In this document: piece by piece, positions 4,675-24,955 of the stretch
Position numbering within the stretch: the first letter of the stretch is position 1
Layout of the letters: every line of letters starts with the position of its first letter
Origin: Polyangiaceae bacterium
GTDB taxonomy: Bacteria > Myxococcota_A > Polyangia > Polyangiales > Houyiibacteriaceae
NCBI GenBank assembly: GCA_027009115.1
Contig: JALVDI010000062.1
Span: 1 to 45,598 of the forward strand
Direction of reading: 5' to 3'
Length of the DNA: 45,598 nt
Notes under the pieces: generated by a model
What the model saw: the letters and a program-made list of their open reading frames with translations, nothing else
What the model was told of the DNA's origin: nothing
The model's database searches: none
Position numbers and translations under genes: made by a program

Positions 4675-6195
4675 TCAGCTTTCGAGACCTCGCCGGAGCT
4701 CTTCGAGGGAGAGGGGCACCACTGTAGTCTCGCCCGGCCGACCGGGGACTACGAAGTTCACTCGATCGCCTTCGCGCTTCTTGTCCTGCAAGACGTACCC
4801 GAAGACCTCGTCGCTCAGGGCAGCGTCCAGGTCGACGGGGAGACCGAGCCGGGCGATCAGCCGCAGGAGCCGCTCCTGCTCCGTCGAGCGCATCCGCCCG
4901 AGGGCCACTCCAAGCCGGGCCGCCGCCACGAGCCCGAGCGCCACCGCCTCCCCATGAACCCAGCGCCGGTAGGCCCCCGCCGCCTCCAGGGCGTGGCCCA
5001 AGGTGTGGCCGAGATTGAGCAGCCTGCGCAGGTCCGCCTCGCGCTCATCGTCCTCGACGATGCGTGCCTTGAGCGCCACGCTCCTCATCACCGCCGACAC
5101 ATGGGCATCGAGGTCGCCCGCGCGGAGGGCCTCGGCCTCGGCCTCGAGGGCGCCGACGGCCTCCTCTCCTTGAAGCCACGCCGCCTTCACGATCTCGGCG
5201 CGCCCGGCGACGGCCTCGCGCGCCGGTAGCGTGCGGAGCGTCTCGACGTCGCAGAGCACGAACTGGGGCTGATGAAAGGCGCCGACCAGGTTCTTGCCCG
5301 CAGGCCTGTTGACGCCGGTCTTGCCGCCCACGGAGCTGTCGACCATCGCCAGGAGCGAGGTCGGCACCTGCCCAAAGCCCACACCGCGGAGCAGCGTCGC
5401 CGCCGCAAAGCCGGTGAGGTCGCCGACCACGCCCCCGCCCACCGCCACCAGGAGCCCGCGGCGGTCGATGCCCGCATCGAGGGCCTCATCCCAGATGCGC
5501 GCCACCGTCTCCAGGCTCTTGTGCTCCTCGCCCGCGGGCAGGTCGAGCGAGCGAGCCTCGGGGGCGATCGCGTCGCGCCACCGGCGGGTGTTCTCGTCGG
5601 CCACGGCCAGCGTGCTCCGCCCCTCGATCCGGGCCGGCAGCCGCGAGCGCACCCCGCGCCCAATCTCGACCACGTAGCTTCGCTCGCCGAGGGCGACCAG
5701 GACTCGCCGATCCCGCGCCAGACGCACAATGGCATCCACGGCGCCCGGCTTGGACGTGTCGACCCGACCGTGGCACTCCGCATACGCCGCGGCGCGTTCG
5801 CGCACGAGCTTCGTCAGCGCTTCGAGCGGGTCGGCGCCCAGGAGAGGACGATTCGCACCGGCGCCGACCCGGCGAGCGAGCACCCGGGGCGGTGCCGTCA
5901 GAGTGAGGAGCGTCCCGGTACGGCGTAGGAGACGGCGCACCTCCGGGTCCACCACCGTGCCGCCGCCCAGGGCGACGACCACGTCGTCTTCGGCGGCCAC
6001 CGCCAACGCCACGGAGCGCTCGAGGACCCGAAACGCCTGCGCCCCTTCGTCCCGGAAGATCTCTGCGATGCTCTTGCCCGCGGCCGCCTCGATCCGCGCG
6101 TCCAGGTCCACGGGCGTCAGACCGAGGGCCGCCGCAGCCTCCCTCGCGAGGGTGGACTTCCCGGCCCCCATGGGCCCCGACAGATAGACGCGCAT
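4675..6195 (-). CDS. aroKB: Bifunctional shikimate kinase / 3-dehydroquinate synthase
   Basis: This is a single 506-residue protein joining two enzymes of the shikimate pathway. The N-terminal ~165 residues are shikimate kinase (AroK), with Walker A GPMGAGKS, the DLDARIE substrate region and a GGG segment. The rest is 3-dehydroquinate synthase (AroB): GGGVVGDLTGFAAATLLRG for NAD binding, the PTSLLAMVDSSVGGKTG segment, and metal-ligand candidates in AEIVK, GHTLGHALE and HGEAVALG. I chose the ATG at 6195 because it starts directly before the kinase fold; an upstream in-frame start at 6249 adds 18 unrelated residues. In many proteobacteria separate aroK and aroB follow pilQ; here they are fused in the same position. 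All visible catalytic motifs are intact. Confidence 0.97.
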   Translation of the reverse strand: MRVYLSGPMGAGKSTLAREAAAALGLTPVDLDARIEAAAGKSIAEIFRDEGAQAFRVLERSVALAVAAEDDVVVALGGGTVVDPEVRRLLRRTGTLLTLTAPPRVLARRVGAGANRPLLGADPLEALTKLVRERAAAYAECHGRVDTSKPGAVDAIVRLARDRRVLVALGERSYVVEIGRGVRSRLPARIEGRSTLAVADENTRRWRDAIAPEARSLDLPAGEEHKSLETVARIWDEALDAGIDRRGLLVAVGGGVVGDLTGFAAATLLRGVGFGQVPTSLLAMVDSSVGGKTGVNRPAGKNLVGAFHQPQFVLCDVETLRTLPAREAVAGRAEIVKAAWLQGEEAVGALEAEAEALRAGDLDAHVSAVMRSVALKARIVEDDEREADLRRLLNLGHTLGHALEAAGAYRRWVHGEAVALGLVAAARLGVALGRMRSTEQERLLRLIARLGLPVDLDAALSDEVFGYVLQDKKREGDRVNFVVPGRPGETTVVPLSLEELRRGLES

Positions 6196-13528: not shown

Positions 13529-13732
13529 TCAGCGACACGGACGTGTGCGCGAGGGCTCCTCTTCGCAGACCTGGTCCACGCAGGCCCACACCAAGCCGCA
13601 CTCGGCCCCCGGAGGCGTGCAATCGGAGTCCTCCACGCATGGGCGTCCGTCCGGACGTTCGGGGTCCTCCACGTCCCGAGGACAGCCGAGGGCCAACAGA
13701 AAGAGCGCGAGCCAGCGGAGTGCCATCCTCAT
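13529..13732 (-). CDS. Tiny Cys-rich lipoprotein
   Basis: The 67-residue product has a hydrophobic leader ending in LLALGC, a plausible lipobox with Cys at residue 17. A ~50-residue mature part carries seven more Cys residues, in C-x5-DC-x6-C spacing like the small disulfide modules common in myxobacterial surface proteins. The ATG at 13732 overlaps the stop of the sigma-54 activator (ATGA), so it is translationally coupled to that regulator and probably its operon partner; a second ATG at 13726 is possible. It ends 13 nt from the convergent LysM/M15 gene. Function is unknown; a surface or sensory partner of the kinase/activator pair is a guess. Confidence 0.75.
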   Translation of the reverse strand: MRMALRWLALFLLALGCPRDVEDPERPDGRPCVEDSDCTPPGAECGLVWACVDQVCEEEPSRTRPCR

Positions 13733-16092
13733 CGGAGTATGCCGTGCTCCTTCAGTCGCCGGTAGAAGGTCCGTCGCGGAATGCCCAGCGCCCGTGCCGC
13801 ACGCGCGCGGTTCCAATCGTGGGCTTCGAGAGCCGCAAGGATGCGCTGCTTCTCGGACTGCTTGAAGTCGTCGAAGCTCTGGGGCGGCACGGCTACCGGC
13901 AGCGCGACGGACGGTGGCCGGCCCTGGCTTGAGCTCGCGCTCTCCTCTTCCCCGAGCGCGAGGTCGTCCGGCCCGATCAAGTCCCCCTCGACGAGGACGC
14001 AAGCGTTCAGCAACACGTGTTCGAGCTGCCGGACGTTCCCGGGCAAGGTTGCCCGCGAGAGCCGCGCGAGGGCCTCCCGTGTCAGCCGTTTGCGCGGCTT
14101 GCCCTGCTCCTCGGCGATGCGTTCGAGGAAGTGCTCGCACAGCAGCGGCAAGTCGCCGACACGATCCCGCAGCGGCGGCAGAACGATCTCGACGACGTTC
14201 AAGCGATAGTACAAGTCTTCGCGAAACTCCCCGCGAGCGACCAGGTCCCGAAGCGATTTGTTGGACGCGGCCACCACCCGGACGTCCACGGTCCGCTCCT
14301 CCTCGGCACCGACCGGACGCACGCGACCGTCCTGCAGGACCCGGAGCAAGTCGACCTGCATCTTCGGCGGCATGTCGCCGATCTCGTCGAGAAAGAGCGT
14401 CCCTCCGGAGGCGCGTTCGAGGAGCCCGCGGCGCCTCTTGTCGGCGCCCGTGAAGGCGCCACGGACGTGGCCGAAGAGCTCCGATTCGAGGAGCGCCTCA
14501 GGGATCGCGGCGCAGTTGACGGCGAGGAAGGGCTTGCTGGCGCGAGGCCCTCCATAGTGGATCGCCCGGGCGACGAGCTCCTTGCCGGTGCCGCTCTCGC
14601 CATGAATCACGACCGGGACATCGGTCTCCTGCACCCGCTCGAGGACGGCGAAGACACGACGCATCGCCTCGCTCCGCCCGATGATCCCCCCGCGGCTAAA
14701 CTTGCCGAGCAGCTCGTTCCGCGTGCGGTCGAGGTCTCGCTTCGTCTCCTCGAGCTGCGCGGTGCGAGCCGCGAGTACCCGCTCGATTTCATCCTTTGCG
14801 CGCTCGAGCTCTTCGTTTGCCGCGAGGAGCTCGGCGCTCCGCGCTTCGAGCTCCGCTACCAGGCGGGCGTTCTCGAGGGCGATCGCCGCCTGGTCGGCAA
14901 AGGCCAAGAGCAGCTCGAGCTCGTCCTCATCGGCGAAACGCCCTCGGCGAAGTCGGTGCTCCAGATAGATCACGCCGAGGGTCCCCGCGGGTCCGCGGAT
15001 CGGAAGACACGCCACGGACTTGAGCCGGAGCTTGTGCACCGTCAGGAACTCGGTGAGCCGCCGGTCGTCCTGTGCGTCGACGGTGACGATCGGCTCGCCG
15101 TCGATCAACACAGCCTCGGCAATGGAGCGCGAAAACTGCACCGAAGGGTCGTCGAAGGGGGTGCCCCGAACCAAACGGGGCACGAGCGCGCCTTCGGCGT
15201 CGGGCACGAGCACGAAGCCTCGCTCTGCCTCAGAGAGCTCGACGGCCGCGTCGGTGATGCGCTCGAGGAGGCGATCGAGATCCCGCTCGCACGCCAACCG
15301 CTTGAGGATGTCGAGCAGACGCCGCGTGCGGCGGTCCAGGAGCTCGCCGGAGCTCGCCCCGGCGGCGACGCTCCGCTGCGTGGTCGAGCTCGCCCGCGTA
15401 CGCACCGCACGGCGCCTGGGATCGCTCCAGAAGGCCGACCTCAGCGCCGCCGGCAAGGCCACCACGATCTCTTCGAGGATCTCCATGGACCGCTGCTCGT
15501 GGCGGCGGGCCGCGAAGTCGCTCCCACGCCGGGAGTGGAGCTCCCCCAGCAACGCCTCCGCCTGCCATTGGACCTCCGGGTGGATGCCCTCCGCCTCCGC
15601 CGCGAGGGCCTCCGCCAACGCGAGGGCCTCCCCGAGGTCGTCCCCAGCCGCCCGAGCCCGCACCTGCTGGAGCCTCCAGGCGAGCCGCAGGTCGTCCGCG
15701 CCTTCCGCGTCGATCAGCGCCTCGGCCTCTCCGAGCCCCTCGAGGGCTGCGTCCAGGTCCCCGGGTCCGCCGCGCTCCAACCGCACCTGGGCTCCGGCGA
15801 GCAGCCCTCGAATTCGGAGGCGCGGCGGCACCTGCGAAGCGCTCGCATCGTCGAAGCTGAGCAATGCAGTCGCGAGCTCCCCACCGGCCGCCGCGACCCA
15901 CCCTCGCGCCAGGTGCACCAACGCCGCCTCGGCCTCGCTCGCGGCCACCTCTCCTACGGACTCGAGGGCGCCGAGCCGCGCCGCAAGGTAAGCACGCCAT
16001 GCCGGCGTCGGTGCCGCTTTCAGCGCGGCCGCGAAGTCTCCGGCCGCCTCTGCGCGGTCGACCGGCTCCGTCACTGCGCCCGAATGTGCCAC
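13729..16092 (-). CDS. Sigma-54-dependent activator with TPR-like and GAF domains
   Basis: The 787-residue regulator has an Ala-rich TPR-like helical region (~1-230), a GAF sensor (~265-415) and a coiled coil (~415-470). The sigma-54 AAA+ domain (~480-710) has Walker A GESGTGKE, the GAFTGA loop that contacts sigma-54, and the LFLDEIGDM Walker B. A Fis-type helix-turn-helix ends it (NRARAARALGIPRRTFYRRL). There is no response-regulator receiver, so control is probably through the GAF or TPR parts or by phosphorylation. The start is a GTG at 16092 lying inside a perfect inverted repeat. The gene is 44 nt downstream of a Ser/Thr kinase and overlaps a tiny lipoprotein gene, a likely three-gene signalling operon. 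Confidence 0.93.
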   Translation of the reverse strand: MAHSGAVTEPVDRAEAAGDFAAALKAAPTPAWRAYLAARLGALESVGEVAASEAEAALVHLARGWVAAAGGELATALLSFDDASASQVPPRLRIRGLLAGAQVRLERGGPGDLDAALEGLGEAEALIDAEGADDLRLAWRLQQVRARAAGDDLGEALALAEALAAEAEGIHPEVQWQAEALLGELHSRRGSDFAARRHEQRSMEILEEIVVALPAALRSAFWSDPRRRAVRTRASSTTQRSVAAGASSGELLDRRTRRLLDILKRLACERDLDRLLERITDAAVELSEAERGFVLVPDAEGALVPRLVRGTPFDDPSVQFSRSIAEAVLIDGEPIVTVDAQDDRRLTEFLTVHKLRLKSVACLPIRGPAGTLGVIYLEHRLRRGRFADEDELELLLAFADQAAIALENARLVAELEARSAELLAANEELERAKDEIERVLAARTAQLEETKRDLDRTRNELLGKFSRGGIIGRSEAMRRVFAVLERVQETDVPVVIHGESGTGKELVARAIHYGGPRASKPFLAVNCAAIPEALLESELFGHVRGAFTGADKRRRGLLERASGGTLFLDEIGDMPPKMQVDLLRVLQDGRVRPVGAEEERTVDVRVVAASNKSLRDLVARGEFREDLYYRLNVVEIVLPPLRDRVGDLPLLCEHFLERIAEEQGKPRKRLTREALARLSRATLPGNVRQLEHVLLNACVLVEGDLIGPDDLALGEEESASSSQGRPPSVALPVAVPPQSFDDFKQSEKQRILAALEAHDWNRARAARALGIPRRTFYRRLKEHGILR

Positions 16093-19060: not shown

Positions 19061-19108
19061 CGCCACCCGCCTGCTGCCGCCCTCCCTGAGCTGCGCGGGA
19101 GGCTCTGA
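19055..19108 (+). CDS. Possible 17-residue leader peptide
   Basis: ATG at 19055 opens a 17-codon frame (MKRHPPAAALPELRGRL) ending in a TGA at 19106-19108 that overlaps the SDR ATG by one base. The start lies in a 17-bp duplication, so it may be an accident of recent duplication. If translated, it would couple ribosomes from the metalloprotease stop to the SDR start. The SDR also has its own GGGAGG binding site inside this frame. No amino-acid pattern suggests classical attenuation. Confidence 0.25.
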   Translation: MKRHPPAAALPELRGRL

Positions 19109-19950
19109 TGGCCGTCGGCCTCGAGGGAAAGGTCGTCTTGATCACGGGAGCGGGCCGGGGCATCGGCCGCGCCACGGCCGAGCTGCTCGCGCGCCGCGGC
19201 GCGCGCCTCGTCCTCAACGACCTCGGCTGCGATGTGGAGGGGCGGGGTGCGGACCCGTCGGTGATCGAGGACGTGGCGGGGCAGCTCCGAGCAGCCGGCG
19301 CCGAGGTGGTCGACGACTCCGGCGACGCCACGAAGGACGTCGCTCGCCTCATCGAGCTGGCCTGCGCCACCTTCGGGCAGCTCGACGCCGTCGTGAGCTG
19401 CATCGGCAGCCGTTGGGAGCGCTCGCTGCTGCGGCTCGACGACGCCGACGTCGAGCGGATCTTCGAGGTAGGCTTCCATGGACCGCGGAGGCTTCTCCGC
19501 GCCGCCGCCGCCCACTGGACCGAAGCCCGCCTGCCCGGCCGCGCCATCCTGTGTGCAGGCCCAGCGGCGTTCTTCGGCACCGCCCGCCAGGGCGCGGTGG
19601 GCGCTGCGCAGGCCGCCCTCGTCGCCCTCGCCCGCGCCGCCGCCGTCGAGCTGCGACGGCACGCCATCGGCATCAACGTGGTGGTGCCGACGGCACGGAC
19701 TCGGCTCACCGAGGACCTCCCGCTCTTCCAGGGCATCGGCGAGGGCTCGATGACCCCTCAGAACGTGGCGGCTGTCCTGGCGTTCCTCGTGAGTGACGAC
19801 GCCCTGGAGGTCCACGGCGAGGTCCTGGGCGTCGCCGGAGGCCGTCTGTACGCCGTGCAATCGCGCGAGACGACCGGAGCCTTCCTCGACCAAGCCGATT
19901 TCACACCCGAAGACGTCGCGGCCGCCTGGCCCGAGGTGACCCAGCCGTGA
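19108..19950 (+). CDS. SDR-fold protein lacking the catalytic Tyr and Lys
   Basis: The 280-residue protein has a normal short-chain dehydrogenase N-terminus: VVLITGAGRGIGRATAELLA is the glycine-rich NAD(P) loop and LVLNDLG follows as the cofactor-specificity strand. The NNAG position reads SCIG. Where SDRs carry Y-x-x-x-K, this protein reads RQGAVGAAQAAL, with Val and Gln at the Tyr and Lys positions. The usual catalytic Ser strand reads ILCAGPAAFF. It probably binds a dinucleotide but cannot use the standard SDR mechanism, so it may be a pseudoenzyme or sensor. GGGAGG lies 6 nt before the ATG. It follows the metalloprotease closely and may share its transcript. Confidence 0.88.
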   Translation: MAVGLEGKVVLITGAGRGIGRATAELLARRGARLVLNDLGCDVEGRGADPSVIEDVAGQLRAAGAEVVDDSGDATKDVARLIELACATFGQLDAVVSCIGSRWERSLLRLDDADVERIFEVGFHGPRRLLRAAAAHWTEARLPGRAILCAGPAAFFGTARQGAVGAAQAALVALARAAAVELRRHAIGINVVVPTARTRLTEDLPLFQGIGEGSMTPQNVAAVLAFLVSDDALEVHGEVLGVAGGRLYAVQSRETTGAFLDQADFTPEDVAAAWPEVTQP

Positions 19951-19958
19951 GCCTGGCG

Positions 19959-20126
19959 TCAGCCGAAGAGATCGATCACGACGACGCCGCGATCGGCGTC
20001 CTCGTCGCGCGTCTCTTCACGGGGCGGCACCAAGGGAATGGGGACATGCACCACCGGCTGCTCGCGCTCGTTGCGCACGTCTTCTTCCCGCTTGCGGATC
20101 TGGTCGATGATGAAGGGAGGCAGCAT
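19959..20126 (-). CDS. Small hydrophilic protein of 55 residues
   Basis: The 55-residue product begins MLPPFIIDQIRKREEDV, an amphipathic basic/acidic helix. A Pro/Val strand (PVVHVPIPLVPP) follows, then an acidic stretch and the C-terminus GVVVIDLFG. From memory, small proteins with an MLPPFII-x-QIRKRE start recur in deltaproteobacteria/Myxococcota; their role is not known to me. It has its own good promoter (20154-20181) and ends 8 nt from the convergent SDR gene. No Shine-Dalgarno is evident and the predicted leader is only ~20 nt. There is no signal peptide or membrane segment, so it is probably a cytoplasmic partner or adaptor. It is short enough to be missed by ordinary gene calling. Confidence 0.78.
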   Translation of the reverse strand: MLPPFIIDQIRKREEDVRNEREQPVVHVPIPLVPPREETRDEDADRGVVVIDLFG

Positions 20127-20153
20127 GGTGAAGACCGGGGTGTACTCACCGGC

Positions 20154-20181
20154 AATATAGCAATGGCCCCTCGGGTGACAA
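20154..20181 (-). promoter_or_regulatory. Sigma-70-like promoter for the 55-residue gene
   Basis: On the minus strand TTGTCA (20181-20176) and TATATT (20159-20154) are 16 nt apart, both close to consensus and among the best promoter matches in the window. The predicted start near 20147 lies ~20 nt before the ATG at 20126. Confidence 0.62.
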
Positions 20182-20257
20182 GAGTTTGCGCGCGGAGACC
20201 TGCCGGAGGGCTCGGCCGGACCCCACGACCCGCTATTCGACCGACAGGGGCCCGCCC

Positions 20258-21538
20258 TTGAGGCCCGCCGCGCCGCTTGCCCCGTGGGCGCTGTCGATCG
20301 TGGCTCTCGGGGCCAGCAGCGTCGGAGCTCAGGACTTTGACCCGCAGAACGCTGGGTGGAACGGGCTGCGCGATCTCCTGGGGGCCGCCGATGAAGCCGG
20401 CGTCCTCCTCGACACCCCCGCGGAGATCGACGTGAGCGCCCTCGATGCGACCGACGCTCTGCTGATCGTGCACCCTACCGAACCCCTGCCGCGGGGGAGC
20501 CTTACGGCCTTCCTGCGCGCGGGCGGGCGGGTGGCCGTCGCCGACGACTTCGGGCACGCCGACGCGTTCCTCCGCGGCTACGGCATTGCCCGTCACGAGC
20601 CGAACCTTGGCGAGGACGTGCTGCTCCTGCGCGGCAACCCGGCTCTCCCCATCGCGCGGGCGCGGGCGCGCCATCCGCTGATGGAAGAGGTGGACGCCCT
20701 CGTCGCCAACCACCCGACGGTTCTCACGCACCAGGCGCTGCAGCCGATCGCGGCCTTCGACGAGTCGAGCGAGGCGCTCGTGCTCGCCGGCGCCATCGAA
20801 GAGGGCCGACTCGCGGCCATCGGTGATCCGAGCCTGTTCATCAACAACATGATGCGCTTCCGCGGAAACCGACGGTTCGCGCGCAACCTGCTTCGCTACC
20901 TCGACGCCGGGCGCGGAGGCCGAATCCTGCTCGCAACCCCGGGAGTGCCCCTGCGCGGCCGCTTCGGTGACGGGAGTGGCCCGCCGCTGGAACGACTGAA
21001 CGACCGCCTGCGGGACGCCGCCCACGCGGACACACCGCCCATCGCCCTGACCCTCACCGCCGCCGTGCTCGCGGCCATTCTCCTCGTCTTCGCGGTGTCG
21101 GCGTTGCCGACCCGCTCCCCCTACTCGCGACAGGCTGTCGATCCGATCCGGAGCGAGGGCGGCGGCTTCCTCGGCCGCGTCGAGTTCTTCACGCGGCGAC
21201 GGCGCGACCTCGTCCACCCATTGATGGTCTACAAGTTCGAGTTGGAGGCCGAGCTCGTGCGTCGCCTCGGGCTCGAGCAGACGCCACGGCTGGGAGACGC
21301 CGTCCGCGTCCTGCAGCAAGCCGGGTTGCCGGCGGCCGAAGCCGAGGAGCTCCGACGGCTACTGCTGGAGCTCGACGATCTGCGCCGGCGCCTCGACCAC
21401 CCTCCAGGGCCGCCGAGGGTCTCGCCCCACCGGCTGCGCCGCATGGTAGACACGGGGGAGCGTCTCCTCGCGCGCATCGCCAAGCTCACCCTGCCGGGAG
21501 CGGACGAGGACCAGGCGCGCTACAACGGCCCACGATGA
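20258..21538 (+). CDS. DUF4350-type membrane protein
   Basis: The 426-residue product, started at TTG 20258, begins with a signal sequence ending in GAQ. A Rossmann-like extracytoplasmic domain follows (ALDATDALLIVHP, GGRVAVADDFGHAD), typical of DUF4350. A membrane helix comes next (~residues 270-292, ALTLTAAVLAAILLVFAVSA) and then a basic cytoplasmic tail with helices. DUF4350 proteins are usually encoded beside MoxR and DUF58 genes, exactly as here, and are thought to belong to a membrane-associated MoxR module. The last 4 nt overlap the MoxR start (ATGA). The upstream frame from 20186 lacks a signal sequence, so I kept the internal TTG. Molecular function is unknown. Confidence 0.88.
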   Translation: MRPAAPLAPWALSIVALGASSVGAQDFDPQNAGWNGLRDLLGAADEAGVLLDTPAEIDVSALDATDALLIVHPTEPLPRGSLTAFLRAGGRVAVADDFGHADAFLRGYGIARHEPNLGEDVLLLRGNPALPIARARARHPLMEEVDALVANHPTVLTHQALQPIAAFDESSEALVLAGAIEEGRLAAIGDPSLFINNMMRFRGNRRFARNLLRYLDAGRGGRILLATPGVPLRGRFGDGSGPPLERLNDRLRDAAHADTPPIALTLTAAVLAAILLVFAVSALPTRSPYSRQAVDPIRSEGGGFLGRVEFFTRRRRDLVHPLMVYKFELEAELVRRLGLEQTPRLGDAVRVLQQAGLPAAEAEELRRLLLELDDLRRRLDHPPGPPRVSPHRLRRMVDTGERLLARIAKLTLPGADEDQARYNGPR

Positions 21539-22503
21539 CTGCCACTCGAAGCCCCATCACCGACGCCACCCTCGCCCGCGCGGCGGAGCTCGCGGGCGCG
21601 GTCGTCCGCGAGGTGCAGGCGGTCTTCGTGGGCCCCCGGGACATCCCCGAGCTGCTCCTGGTGAGCCTCCTGGCGGGTGGGCACGCGCTCCTCGAAGGGG
21701 TGCCGGGCGTCGCCAAGACCACGCTCGTCAAGGCCTTCGCCGCCACGCTCGGGTGCTCGTTTCGTCGTATCCAGTTCACCCCGGACCTGCTGCCGGCCGA
21801 CATCACCGGGACCTTCGTGCTCTCGCCGCGGGACGGCACCTTCTCGCTCCGAGAGGGCCCCGTCTTCGCCAACGTCGTGCTGGGCGACGAGATCAACCGC
21901 GCACCCGCCAAGACCCAAAGCGCCCTGCTCGAGGCGATGCAGGAGCGGCAAGTGACCATCGAAGGCGAGACGCGACCGCTCCCCGACCCTTTCCTGGTGC
22001 TCGCGACGCAGAACCCCGTGGAGCACGCAGGCACCTACCCGCTCCCGGAAGCCCAGATCGATCGCTTCCTGGTTCGGTTGGTTCTGGGATACCCGGACGG
22101 ACGCGCCGAGCGTGAGATGCTCCGGCGCTTCTTGGGGGCGCGGCCGACGCCTCGATCCGTCTTGGGGCCCGACGACATCCGGCACCTGCGGGCGCTGGTT
22201 GGCTCGATCCACGTCGAGGACGAGGTCCTCGACTACGTCGTACGTCTGGCGACTTACACCCGCGAGCACAGCCGGCTGTTCTTGGGCATCAGTCCGCGGG
22301 CATCCCTCGCGTTGCTGCAGGCCGCTCGGGCGCGGGCGCTCCTCGGTGGGCGGGCCTACGTGTTGCCGGACGACGTGAAGGCCCTGGCCATCCCGGTCCT
22401 CGCACACCGCCTGGTGCTCACGCCGGAGGCCGAGATGGAGGGGACGCGTCCCGAGCGTTTGCTGGCGCGGGCTCTCGACCGCGTGCCCCCACGAAGCGAC
22501 TGA
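21535..22503 (+). CDS. MoxR-family AAA+ ATPase
   Basis: The 322-residue ATPase shows Walker A GVPGVAKTT (~54-62), Walker B VVLGDEINR (~114-122), sensor 1 ATQNP (~155) and the MoxR-typical PLPEAQIDRF. MoxR ATPases are thought to remodel or mature partner proteins that carry von Willebrand A-like domains, often encoded next door. Here the partners are the DUF58 protein directly downstream (stop/start overlap TGATG) and the DUF4350 protein upstream (4-nt overlap). The C-terminal lid (~230-322) looks complete. The physiological substrate cannot be read from the sequence. Confidence 0.96.
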   Translation: MTATRSPITDATLARAAELAGAVVREVQAVFVGPRDIPELLLVSLLAGGHALLEGVPGVAKTTLVKAFAATLGCSFRRIQFTPDLLPADITGTFVLSPRDGTFSLREGPVFANVVLGDEINRAPAKTQSALLEAMQERQVTIEGETRPLPDPFLVLATQNPVEHAGTYPLPEAQIDRFLVRLVLGYPDGRAEREMLRRFLGARPTPRSVLGPDDIRHLRALVGSIHVEDEVLDYVVRLATYTREHSRLFLGISPRASLALLQAARARALLGGRAYVLPDDVKALAIPVLAHRLVLTPEAEMEGTRPERLLARALDRVPPRSD

Positions 22504-24122
22504 TGTTGCCGATCCCCACCCGCGCCGCGCTGGCAGCGTTCGCCGCGTGCGTACTGACCCTCGCGCTGGGCATCACGCTGACGAGCGCCGCCGCCGTCTC
22601 TGTCGCGGGCGCGGGTTTTGTAGGGCTGGCGCTCGCCTTGGCCGCCACCATGCCCTTGGGGCGCCGTCTCCGGCGCGAACGCCTCGAGTTCGCCTGGTGG
22701 CTCGAGCACGGCACGGGACGGGCAGCCGGCGCAGCGATCCCCGGCGCCCCCTTTGAGGTCCGCTGCTACGTGCGCCACCGCGGCGCCATGAACCTGGACG
22801 CGACAGGCCTCGAGCCCATCGTCCCCAGCGCCGTCAAGGTCGAGCGCTGCCCCACCGCCATCCGTCTCGCCGCGCGGACCCGGACCGAGTTTCGCCTCAC
22901 CCTCCTGGCCCCCGCAGCCGGACGCCTCGTGTTGCATGGGCTGGCGCTGCGCCTGCGCGGGCCCCTCGGATTCTTCGAGACGCCGCTCTACTTCCCCAAT
23001 CCGCTCGTCATCAAGGTGCTGCCCCGCGCGGCCGCCGGACGACCGAGGGCGACGGCGATGCGTCAACCCGCCTCCACGGCCCGGGCGGGGCGCGCCGTGG
23101 TCCGGCACCGTGGCGGCGGCACGGAGCTGCACGAGCTCCGTGAGCTCGTCCCGGGCGACCCCTTCAAGGCGATCGCGTGGAAAGCGAGCGCCCGTCGAGG
23201 ACGGCTGATGGTCAAGGAGGTCGAAGAGGAGATCCAGCAGACCCGCTGGATCCTCCTCGACGTCAGCGGAACGATGCGCGCCGGCCCTCCGGGGCGACGC
23301 AAGCTCGACTACGCCATCGAGGTGGCGGCAGCGGCGGCCACGGAAGCGGAGGCAGCCGGCGACCGAGTAGGCCTGATCACCTTCGACGCGCGGGTGGTCA
23401 CACACCTGGCGGCCCACGAGGGCAAATCGCAACGGCTCCGGATCTACGATGCCCTGCTCGGCGCCACGGAGATCGTCGACGAGGACCTGACGGATATCGA
23501 CGAGCAGGCGCTCGCGGAGCTCGTCGCCCGCTACGTGCGCCAGCAAGACGGAGTCGACTTCTACCGCGGTCACGACGGCGTCGATGGCCCGGGGCTCGTC
23601 GACCACGTGCGGCGCGCCCTGGGCGAGATGCGCCCGTCGGAGCGCGCCGCGGTACGAGCGTCGAGCCCCATGTCCCAGTGGCTGCGCCGCTTCTGCCGGG
23701 CCCGTGGCCTTCCCCTGCCTCACCGAGCCGACGCAGGGGACCACGGCAAGAGCCTCGCCCTCGCCGACGCGCTACAGAGGGTCGGCGGGCGATCGCGTTC
23801 GCCGACGTCGATCCTCGTCTGCAGCGACTTCGACGGAGTCCTCGATCCGTCCCCGATCGTCGCTGCCTTGCGGCTCGTCCGCGCACACCGCCACCGGGTG
23901 ACCGTCCTTCTTCCCGACGCGATGTCCCAAGCGCCCCCAGCGACCGAACCGCTCGCCCAGACCCTGGCGCGCGTGTACGCGCGCAGCGAGGAGCGTCGCC
24001 TTCGCGAGACCCGCGAGCTCCTGGGGCGCCTGGGGATCCCCGCGCTCGTGGCGCGCCGGGGCGAGAGCCCTCACCTCGTCGCCGCACGGGCCTGCCGGGC
24101 GGCGCTGCGGAGGGCGGCGTGA
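22503..24122 (+). CDS. DUF58 / vWA-like membrane protein
   Basis: The 539-residue protein has two N-terminal membrane helices (~10-55) and a beta-rich region. The DUF58 signature GTELHELRELVPGDPFKAI falls at ~203-221, followed by a von Willebrand A-like core with WILLDVSGTMR (~248-258) as the metal-site strand, DxSGT. The C-terminal half (~330-539) is longer than in many DUF58 proteins and contains a second alpha/beta segment (TSILVCSDFDGVLDPSPIV). It is the expected client of the MoxR ATPase just upstream (one-base stop/start overlap). Its own stop overlaps the GTG of rsmA. Role inferred: envelope-linked protein maturation. Confidence 0.93.
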   Translation: MLPIPTRAALAAFAACVLTLALGITLTSAAAVSVAGAGFVGLALALAATMPLGRRLRRERLEFAWWLEHGTGRAAGAAIPGAPFEVRCYVRHRGAMNLDATGLEPIVPSAVKVERCPTAIRLAARTRTEFRLTLLAPAAGRLVLHGLALRLRGPLGFFETPLYFPNPLVIKVLPRAAAGRPRATAMRQPASTARAGRAVVRHRGGGTELHELRELVPGDPFKAIAWKASARRGRLMVKEVEEEIQQTRWILLDVSGTMRAGPPGRRKLDYAIEVAAAAATEAEAAGDRVGLITFDARVVTHLAAHEGKSQRLRIYDALLGATEIVDEDLTDIDEQALAELVARYVRQQDGVDFYRGHDGVDGPGLVDHVRRALGEMRPSERAAVRASSPMSQWLRRFCRARGLPLPHRADAGDHGKSLALADALQRVGGRSRSPTSILVCSDFDGVLDPSPIVAALRLVRAHRHRVTVLLPDAMSQAPPATEPLAQTLARVYARSEERRLRETRELLGRLGIPALVARRGESPHLVAARACRAALRRAA

Positions 24123-24955
24123 CCCCGCAGCCCTGGGACCGCTGGGAGGACCCGCGCCGTGTGCTGGCGCGCCATGGGCTGCGTCCGAGCCGGCGGCACT
24201 CCCAGAACTTCCTGACGAGCAAGAGCGTCGTGGAGGACATCGCGGCAGCCGTCCTGGAGGAGGCCTCACCGGGATGCGAGGTCCTCGAGATCGGCCCCGG
24301 CGTCGGCACCTTGAGCGCCGAGCTCGTGCGGCGGGGCGCACGGGTCACGGCGATCGAGAAGGACCCGCGAATGCTCCAGCTCCTCGAGAAGGAGTTCGGC
24401 GAGCTCGACGCACTTCGGGTCGTGTCCGGGGACGCGGTCGCCCTGCGCATCGACGCGTGGATCCCCGTGCCAGGACGGGTCGCGGGCAACCTCCCGTACG
24501 CGATCACGGGCGTCATCCTTCGACGTCTCGTCGAACAGCGACGCTGCGTGCAACGCGCGGCGCTCATGGTCCAGCGCGAGGTGCGCGACCGCCTGACGGC
24601 GGCGCCAGGGACCAAGGCCTACGGCGCTCCGACCGTCTTTGTGCAGAACGTCTACGAGGTGGCGGACGTCTGCTCGGTGCCGCCAGGCGCATTCCACCCG
24701 CCGCCAAAGGTGCACAGCTCGGTGATCGTGCTGCGACCCCGCCATGCTCCCCGAGCCAAGGACGACACCACGTTCACTCAGCTCGTTCGTGCCGCCTTCG
24801 GGCAGCGCCGCAAGACGCTGCGCAACGCTCTGCGCGCTGCCTTCGACCGGGAGCGGGTCGAGGCGGCCCTCGCGCGCTGCGGCATCGACGGCGGCCGCCG
24901 CGGCGAGACGCTCACCGTCGAGGAGTTCGGAGCCCTCGGCGCCGCCCTTCGCTGA
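24119..24955 (+). CDS. rsmA: 16S rRNA dimethyladenosine transferase RsmA (KsgA)
   Basis: The 278-residue enzyme dimethylates two adjacent adenosines in helix 45 of 16S rRNA. It has the N-terminal RRHSQNFL motif, SAM-binding motif EIGPGVGTLSAEL (~58-70), the acidic IEKD strand, and the active-site motif GNLPYAI (~124). The C-terminal PPPKVHSSVI and FGQRRKTLRNAL are family hallmarks. The GTG at 24119 overlaps the DUF58 stop (GTGA), so it is translated in the MoxR operon. The start matches the usual N-terminal length. Its placement in a MoxR/DUF58 operon is probably incidental housekeeping. Confidence 0.97.
   Translation: MTPQPWDRWEDPRRVLARHGLRPSRRHSQNFLTSKSVVEDIAAAVLEEASPGCEVLEIGPGVGTLSAELVRRGARVTAIEKDPRMLQLLEKEFGELDALRVVSGDAVALRIDAWIPVPGRVAGNLPYAITGVILRRLVEQRRCVQRAALMVQREVRDRLTAAPGTKAYGAPTVFVQNVYEVADVCSVPPGAFHPPPKVHSSVIVLRPRHAPRAKDDTTFTQLVRAAFGQRRKTLRNALRAAFDRERVEAALARCGIDGGRRGETLTVEEFGALGAALR

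Follow-up and report, generated by a model that had tools for sequence, protein, structure and literature searches.

The small gene and its neighbors

The window, meaning the whole 45,598-nt stretch of contig JALVDI010000062.1 to which all coordinates refer, contains a short open reading frame (ORF) on the minus strand, with an ATG at 20126 and a TGA stop ending at 19959. The 55-aa product reads MLPPFIIDQIRKREED...DRGVVVIDLFG. The features at this locus are as follows.

19959..20126, minus: small protein gene (55 aa, MLPPFIIDQIRKREEDVRNEREQPVVHVPIPLVPPREETRDEDADRGVVVIDLFG), recognized from its ORF, its homologues, and a coding substitution pattern
20154..20181, minus: promoter of the small gene, TTGTCA (20181..20176), 16 nt, and TATATT (20159..20154), from sequence and conservation in homologues
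19108..19950, plus: short-chain dehydrogenase/reductase (SDR)-like gene, convergent with the small gene and named by sequence from a TGAGRGIG motif, not from a family scan
20186..21538, plus: DUF4350 protein (PF14258), first gene of the divergent neighboring operon and a conserved neighbor
21535..24955, plus: MoxR AAA ATPase, DUF58/VWA protein, and KsgA-like rRNA dimethylase, which serve as synteny markers

The 55-residue frame with its ATG start and clean stop is as described in the original prediction, which gave no strand, and the TTGTCA-16-TATATT promoter named there is present upstream on the minus strand. The stops of the small gene and the SDR-like gene are 8 bases apart. No clear Shine-Dalgarno sequence was found before the window copy, and GGAGG is present in many homologues; the window copy is presumably translated. 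A 447-aa open frame (19976-21319, minus) that is antisense to the DUF4350 gene overlaps the small gene in a different frame and is probably a spurious GC-rich antisense ORF. The small gene had also been described as overlooked and shorter than usual calling limits. However, the Prodigal default minimum is 90 nt, and 55 aa exceeds the usual gene-calling minimum, so that the gene has not been established as overlooked.

Distribution and selection in the Myxococcota

The small gene encodes a member of a conserved, uncharacterized small-protein family that is spread through the Myxococcota. A homologue (E <= 0.001) occurs in 54 of 58 related genomes, mostly as a single copy and never with an internal stop, and in a phylum-wide sample of 284 genomes the family profile matches at least 159, a lower bound obtained with no more than 22 candidates scored per genome. 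An opposite-strand query gave weaker matches, in 6 of 19 genomes, and the sense frame performed far better. In one contig scan beyond the Myxococcota set, the confirmed matches were to records named Myxococcota, Polyangia, Deltaproteobacteria, or uncultured bacterium.

Among the closest pairs, dN/dS is ~0.03 to 0.25, and the changes at codon positions 1/2/3 are 0/0/16, 2/0/17, and 2/1/14; over 163 pairs, which are not independent, the differences are 1814/1361/4348. Judged from these substitutions, selection is acting on the amino acids of the small protein. The homologous frames without internal stops and the coding pattern of substitution, mostly at third codon positions, bear out the original prediction of a real gene, and the conserved MLPPFIIxQIRKRE start that it had singled out is found in the family alignment.

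No significant match to the family was found in Pfam, NCBIfam, PHROGs v4, or PDB sequences (the best PDB match, E 0.061, was to a chain named sohair and covers only the N-terminal helix, and the best PHROG had an E of 0.052), and literature searches on the sequence motifs gave no match. Together with the homologues across the phylum, this agrees with the earlier suggestion of a conserved but undescribed family. The libraries searched thus contain neither a name nor a profile for the family, which leaves annotation pipelines unable to link its members. Its members are similar to the microproteins of unknown function that small-ORF catalogues bring together (e.g., PMC11364881), being likewise conserved and <100 aa long, with short conserved motifs and no named domain. 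Distinguishing features of the present family are its absence from Pfam, NCBIfam, and PHROGs and its occurrence in both bacteria and phages.

Anatomy of the protein

Conservation computed over 52 members places most of the information in M1-E16 (up to 4.3 bits), QPxLELPLP, and RGVVIIDL (mostly 2.6 to 4.2 bits), whereas the linkers between these blocks are acidic or proline rich, carry ~1 to 1.5 bits, and vary in length. The blocks of the window copy are as follows.

20067..20126, minus: N-terminal amphipathic helix segment MLPPFIIDQIRKREEDVRNE, from conservation and a helix at residues 4 to 20 in AlphaFold2
20034..20060, minus: middle motif QPVVHVPIP (QPxLELPLP in the family), the second conserved block
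19968..19991, minus: C-terminal motif RGVVVIDL, the third conserved block, found also in phage members

Within the N-terminal block, M1 and L2 are invariant, I7 is invariant or almost so, and I6 and I10 are almost invariant. The family pattern can be written as ML..[FYW]II..IR - P.LELP - RG[VI].I[IL][DE]L, and the window copy has both the ML..[FYW]II[DE].I[RK] block at its N terminus and the RG[VI].[IV][IL][DE]L block within ~15 residues of its end. The RGVVIIDL hallmark at the C terminus, the phage members, and the putatively sigma-54-dependent paralogues all go beyond what had been predicted originally.

Charged residues make up 41% of the composition over the 52 members, with a net charge of about -4 and Cys in 2 of the 52. 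AlphaFold2, supplied with the alignment, predicts a helix at residues 4 to 20 only, with a pLDDT of 83 for residues 1 to 10 and of 61 to 67 at the end and a pTM of 0.27, and it leaves RGVVIIDL as coil; the models are too uncertain for a fold search. These predictions suggest that the small protein may be mostly disordered and fold on binding.

Pup is a short tagging protein of ~60 aa that is acidic and mostly disordered, with a helical part, and the small protein resembles it in size, acidity, predicted disorder, and helical part. A Pup-like modifier was nonetheless rejected, as the family lacks the C-terminal GG-Gln/Glu conjugation end and carries instead a hydrophobic IIDL followed by a tail that varies.

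Promoters and second copies

Promoter-like matches of at least 9/12 within 110 bases are found for 51% of 66 non-identical homologues versus 4.4% of mononucleotide shuffles, although the sequences are related and the trials in this count are not independent. All of these matches have a 16-nt spacer, though their distance to the ATG ranges from 19 to 80. The window copy thus has its own conserved promoter, which is of the sigma-70 type as judged from sequence.

Six examined genomes of the window's order carry a diverged second copy (e.g., MLPAYIIEELRRREE... and MLPPHIIRDILERERAR...). With 120 bases upstream scanned, a GG-N10-GC sigma-54-type site (GGCACG-N5-TGCW) was found in front of all six second copies (L193 to L198), with scores that are each reached by 0.2 to 0.7% of shuffles. 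The same scan flagged three of the first copies, one of which (L089) has a site that overlaps the conserved TTGCTATATT. Constitutive and sigma-54-dependent versions of the family therefore probably coexist in the order. No gene common to the neighborhoods of the second copies was found.

Gene neighborhood and autonomy

At all 26 loci examined in the window's order (window included), with neighbors assigned by tblastn, the small gene lies beside DUF4350-MoxR-DUF58-ksgA or beside ksgA alone. It adjoins DUF4350-MoxR at 20 of these loci, with DUF58 and ksgA further along in most, and directly adjoins ksgA, without DUF4350-MoxR-DUF58, at the other 6. The arrangement DUF4350-MoxR-DUF58-ksgA (20186-24955 in the window) is itself conserved across the order. 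Neighbor clusters built from crude ORF calls were discarded as spurious antisense clusters. A protein with GAF, sigma-54 activator, and Fis-type HTH parts is encoded at 13729-16092 of the window (minus), and a homologue of it lies near the small gene at 14 of the 26 loci, the window included.

DUF4350 matches are weak in two g2 genomes (E 1e-3 in G001 and 7e-5 in G012), and in G009 the best DUF4350 gene is on a different contig, a pattern indicating that the small gene is not dependent on the DUF4350 operon. At one locus (L091, in G044) the small gene is inverted within the same gap and has its own GGAAGGAAGGAG before the ATG. Since it outlasts the operon and has been inverted in place in one genome, the small gene is autonomous. 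The DUF4350 gene is regarded as a synteny marker and probably plays no part in the small protein's function. The window's neighbors do not recur beside the small gene beyond the order, except for a distant SDR match in L115. Genes for tilS, clpP, or an FHA protein are found near the small gene in different lineages, and no conserved neighbor spanning the whole phylum was found.

Phage members

A family-profile scan of IMG/VR revealed members on contigs that are clearly of phage origin, and pattern scans added those in L134, L145, L136, L139, L166, and L170. The phage contigs with members have 30 to 61% GC. Ten ORFs on IMG/VR contigs match the family profile, nine of them at 2e-19 to 9e-9. The phage ORFs were picked by an N-terminal pattern over the first 8 to 10 residues, and the remainder of each was therefore tested separately: a profile of the C-terminal part alone, run against 3381 ORFs, matches 7 of the 10 at 2e-11 to 2e-5, and the ORF ranked after them stands at 0.041. 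Translation showed many other pattern matches in viral contigs to be chance ORFs, which were excluded. Scanning by the C-terminal motif alone gave a further full-length member, in L207. It also gave one in L208, a 392-kb contig, where an indel after the N-terminal block and before the middle block disrupts the frame (~5179-5350, minus). None of the queries tried had a significant match among plasmid or INPHARED phage records, so that the phage evidence rests on the IMG/VR contigs.

Phage genes lie close to several of these members. L127 and its relative L125 have 30 to 34% GC, and genes for an endolysin, a Holliday-junction resolvase, a tail spike, and a homing endonuclease were found on scanning the L127 neighborhood. 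An endolysin gene ends just upstream of the member in L134 and lies two genes upstream of it in L145, a nucleotidyltransferase (phrog_388) and a clamp-loader-like ATPase are encoded nearby in L136, and look-alike genes are found nearby in L139, as judged by eye. For the more distant members in L166 and L170, there was no PHROG match among the neighbors. The longest contigs of the phage collection (203 to 435 kb) are possibly misassigned bacterial DNA; L121/L191 (231 kb), L207 (203 kb), L208, and L170 (258 kb) may be either this or large phages.

The members in L125 (10001-10198) and L127 (10001-10192) have a repeated hydrophobic C terminus, RVIIIDTVD...IGIVIDL / FVVDL, as if the C-terminal motif had been doubled. 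Between the tail and endolysin genes of the same contigs is a gene (L127:4309-5178 and L125:3514-4380) that weakly resembles class III nucleotide cyclases, its match to PF00211 (E 0.0068) being below the cut-off.

Possible function and alternatives

The reading we favor, which we hold with about even confidence, is that the protein is soluble and mostly disordered and works in trans as an adaptor (linker), engaging a conserved partner through its motifs. The N-terminal helix, M-L-x-x-F/Y/W-I-I-x-x-I-R-R-R-E, would dock in a hydrophobic groove on some host component that is widely conserved, the P-x-L-E-L-P-L motif would be brought to a second contact by the variable charged/proline linker, and the C-terminal R-G-V-V-I-I-D-L would join this partner or a different one by beta-strand addition. 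Phage copies may occupy or redirect the host partner during infection, in two related phages with what appears to be a second IxVIDL-like C terminus, and the second copies within the order, if switched on by sigma-54, would be a conditional version beside the constitutive one. Retention throughout the Myxococcota and on several different phages suggests binding to a basic part of the bacterial cell, and strong selection in the order and phylum, taken with the several phage lineages, likewise makes it likely that the protein touches something basic. Points against an adaptor are that neither a binding partner nor a neighbor conserved across the phylum was found and that the AlphaFold2 model, itself of low confidence, shows no beta strand at RGVVIIDL; the partner is probably not the product of a neighboring gene. 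The phage and sigma-54 copies could offer direct routes to it, as a bait shared by host and phage and through the condition under which the second copy is produced.

A more far-reaching form of this proposal, which we put forward tentatively, is that of an undescribed, motif-only family of trans-acting adaptors that is constitutive in bacteria, duplicated under sigma-54 in some, and repeatedly acquired by phages that are not related to one another, in some cases with the C-terminal motif duplicated, to control one conserved host machine. If so, a new target of host takeover would be traceable through the phage copies.

Phage carriage in several lineages and the presence of ksgA, tilS, or clpP nearby in different lineages are also consistent with a form of the adaptor proposal that specifies the partner, in which the protein is a small subunit or regulator acting on a core machine that phages target (RNA polymerase, ribosome, replisome, or protease), is made constitutively by bacteria, and serves phages in takeover. 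We consider this rather unlikely; no neighbor is common to all lineages. Sliding-clamp binding peptides are of the QLxLPL/QLxLF type, as in the N terminus of Hda, and both the LELPL of the middle motif and the VIDLF end of the window copy resemble them superficially, which in the case of the middle motif would suit a core-machine partner. However, LELPL is preceded by R, V, Q, A, or other residues, with no conserved Gln, and the family end varies (IDLG, IDLM, IDL, and IEL), so that a sliding-clamp motif was rejected.

A peripheral membrane peptide, with the N-terminal amphipathic helix bound to the membrane surface and marking or tethering something at the envelope, is improbable. The hydrophobic moment (~0.34 to 0.35 over residues 2 to 12) and the Arg/Lys cluster that follows would suit such a role, but conservation of the exact residues I6, I7, and I10 goes beyond mere hydrophobicity, and the helix is short, is followed by many Glu residues, and is accompanied by no transmembrane stretch.

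Linkage to the operon or ksgA at every examined locus of the order could suggest that the small gene acts in cis on the divergent DUF4350-MoxR-DUF58-ksgA operon, as its leader peptide or as a regulatory element. This is very improbable: constant upstream linkage to the operon does not hold, with six loci lacking DUF4350-MoxR-DUF58 and the gene inverted in L091, and the family is unlinked to the operon outside the order, is carried by phages, and is under amino acid selection. Least credible of all, and refuted by phylum-wide conservation, the coding substitution pattern, and presence in AT-rich phages (30 to 34% GC), is an untranslated chance ORF in GC-rich DNA, for which the open frames on the opposite strand and the overlapping 447-aa frame on the same strand might speak.
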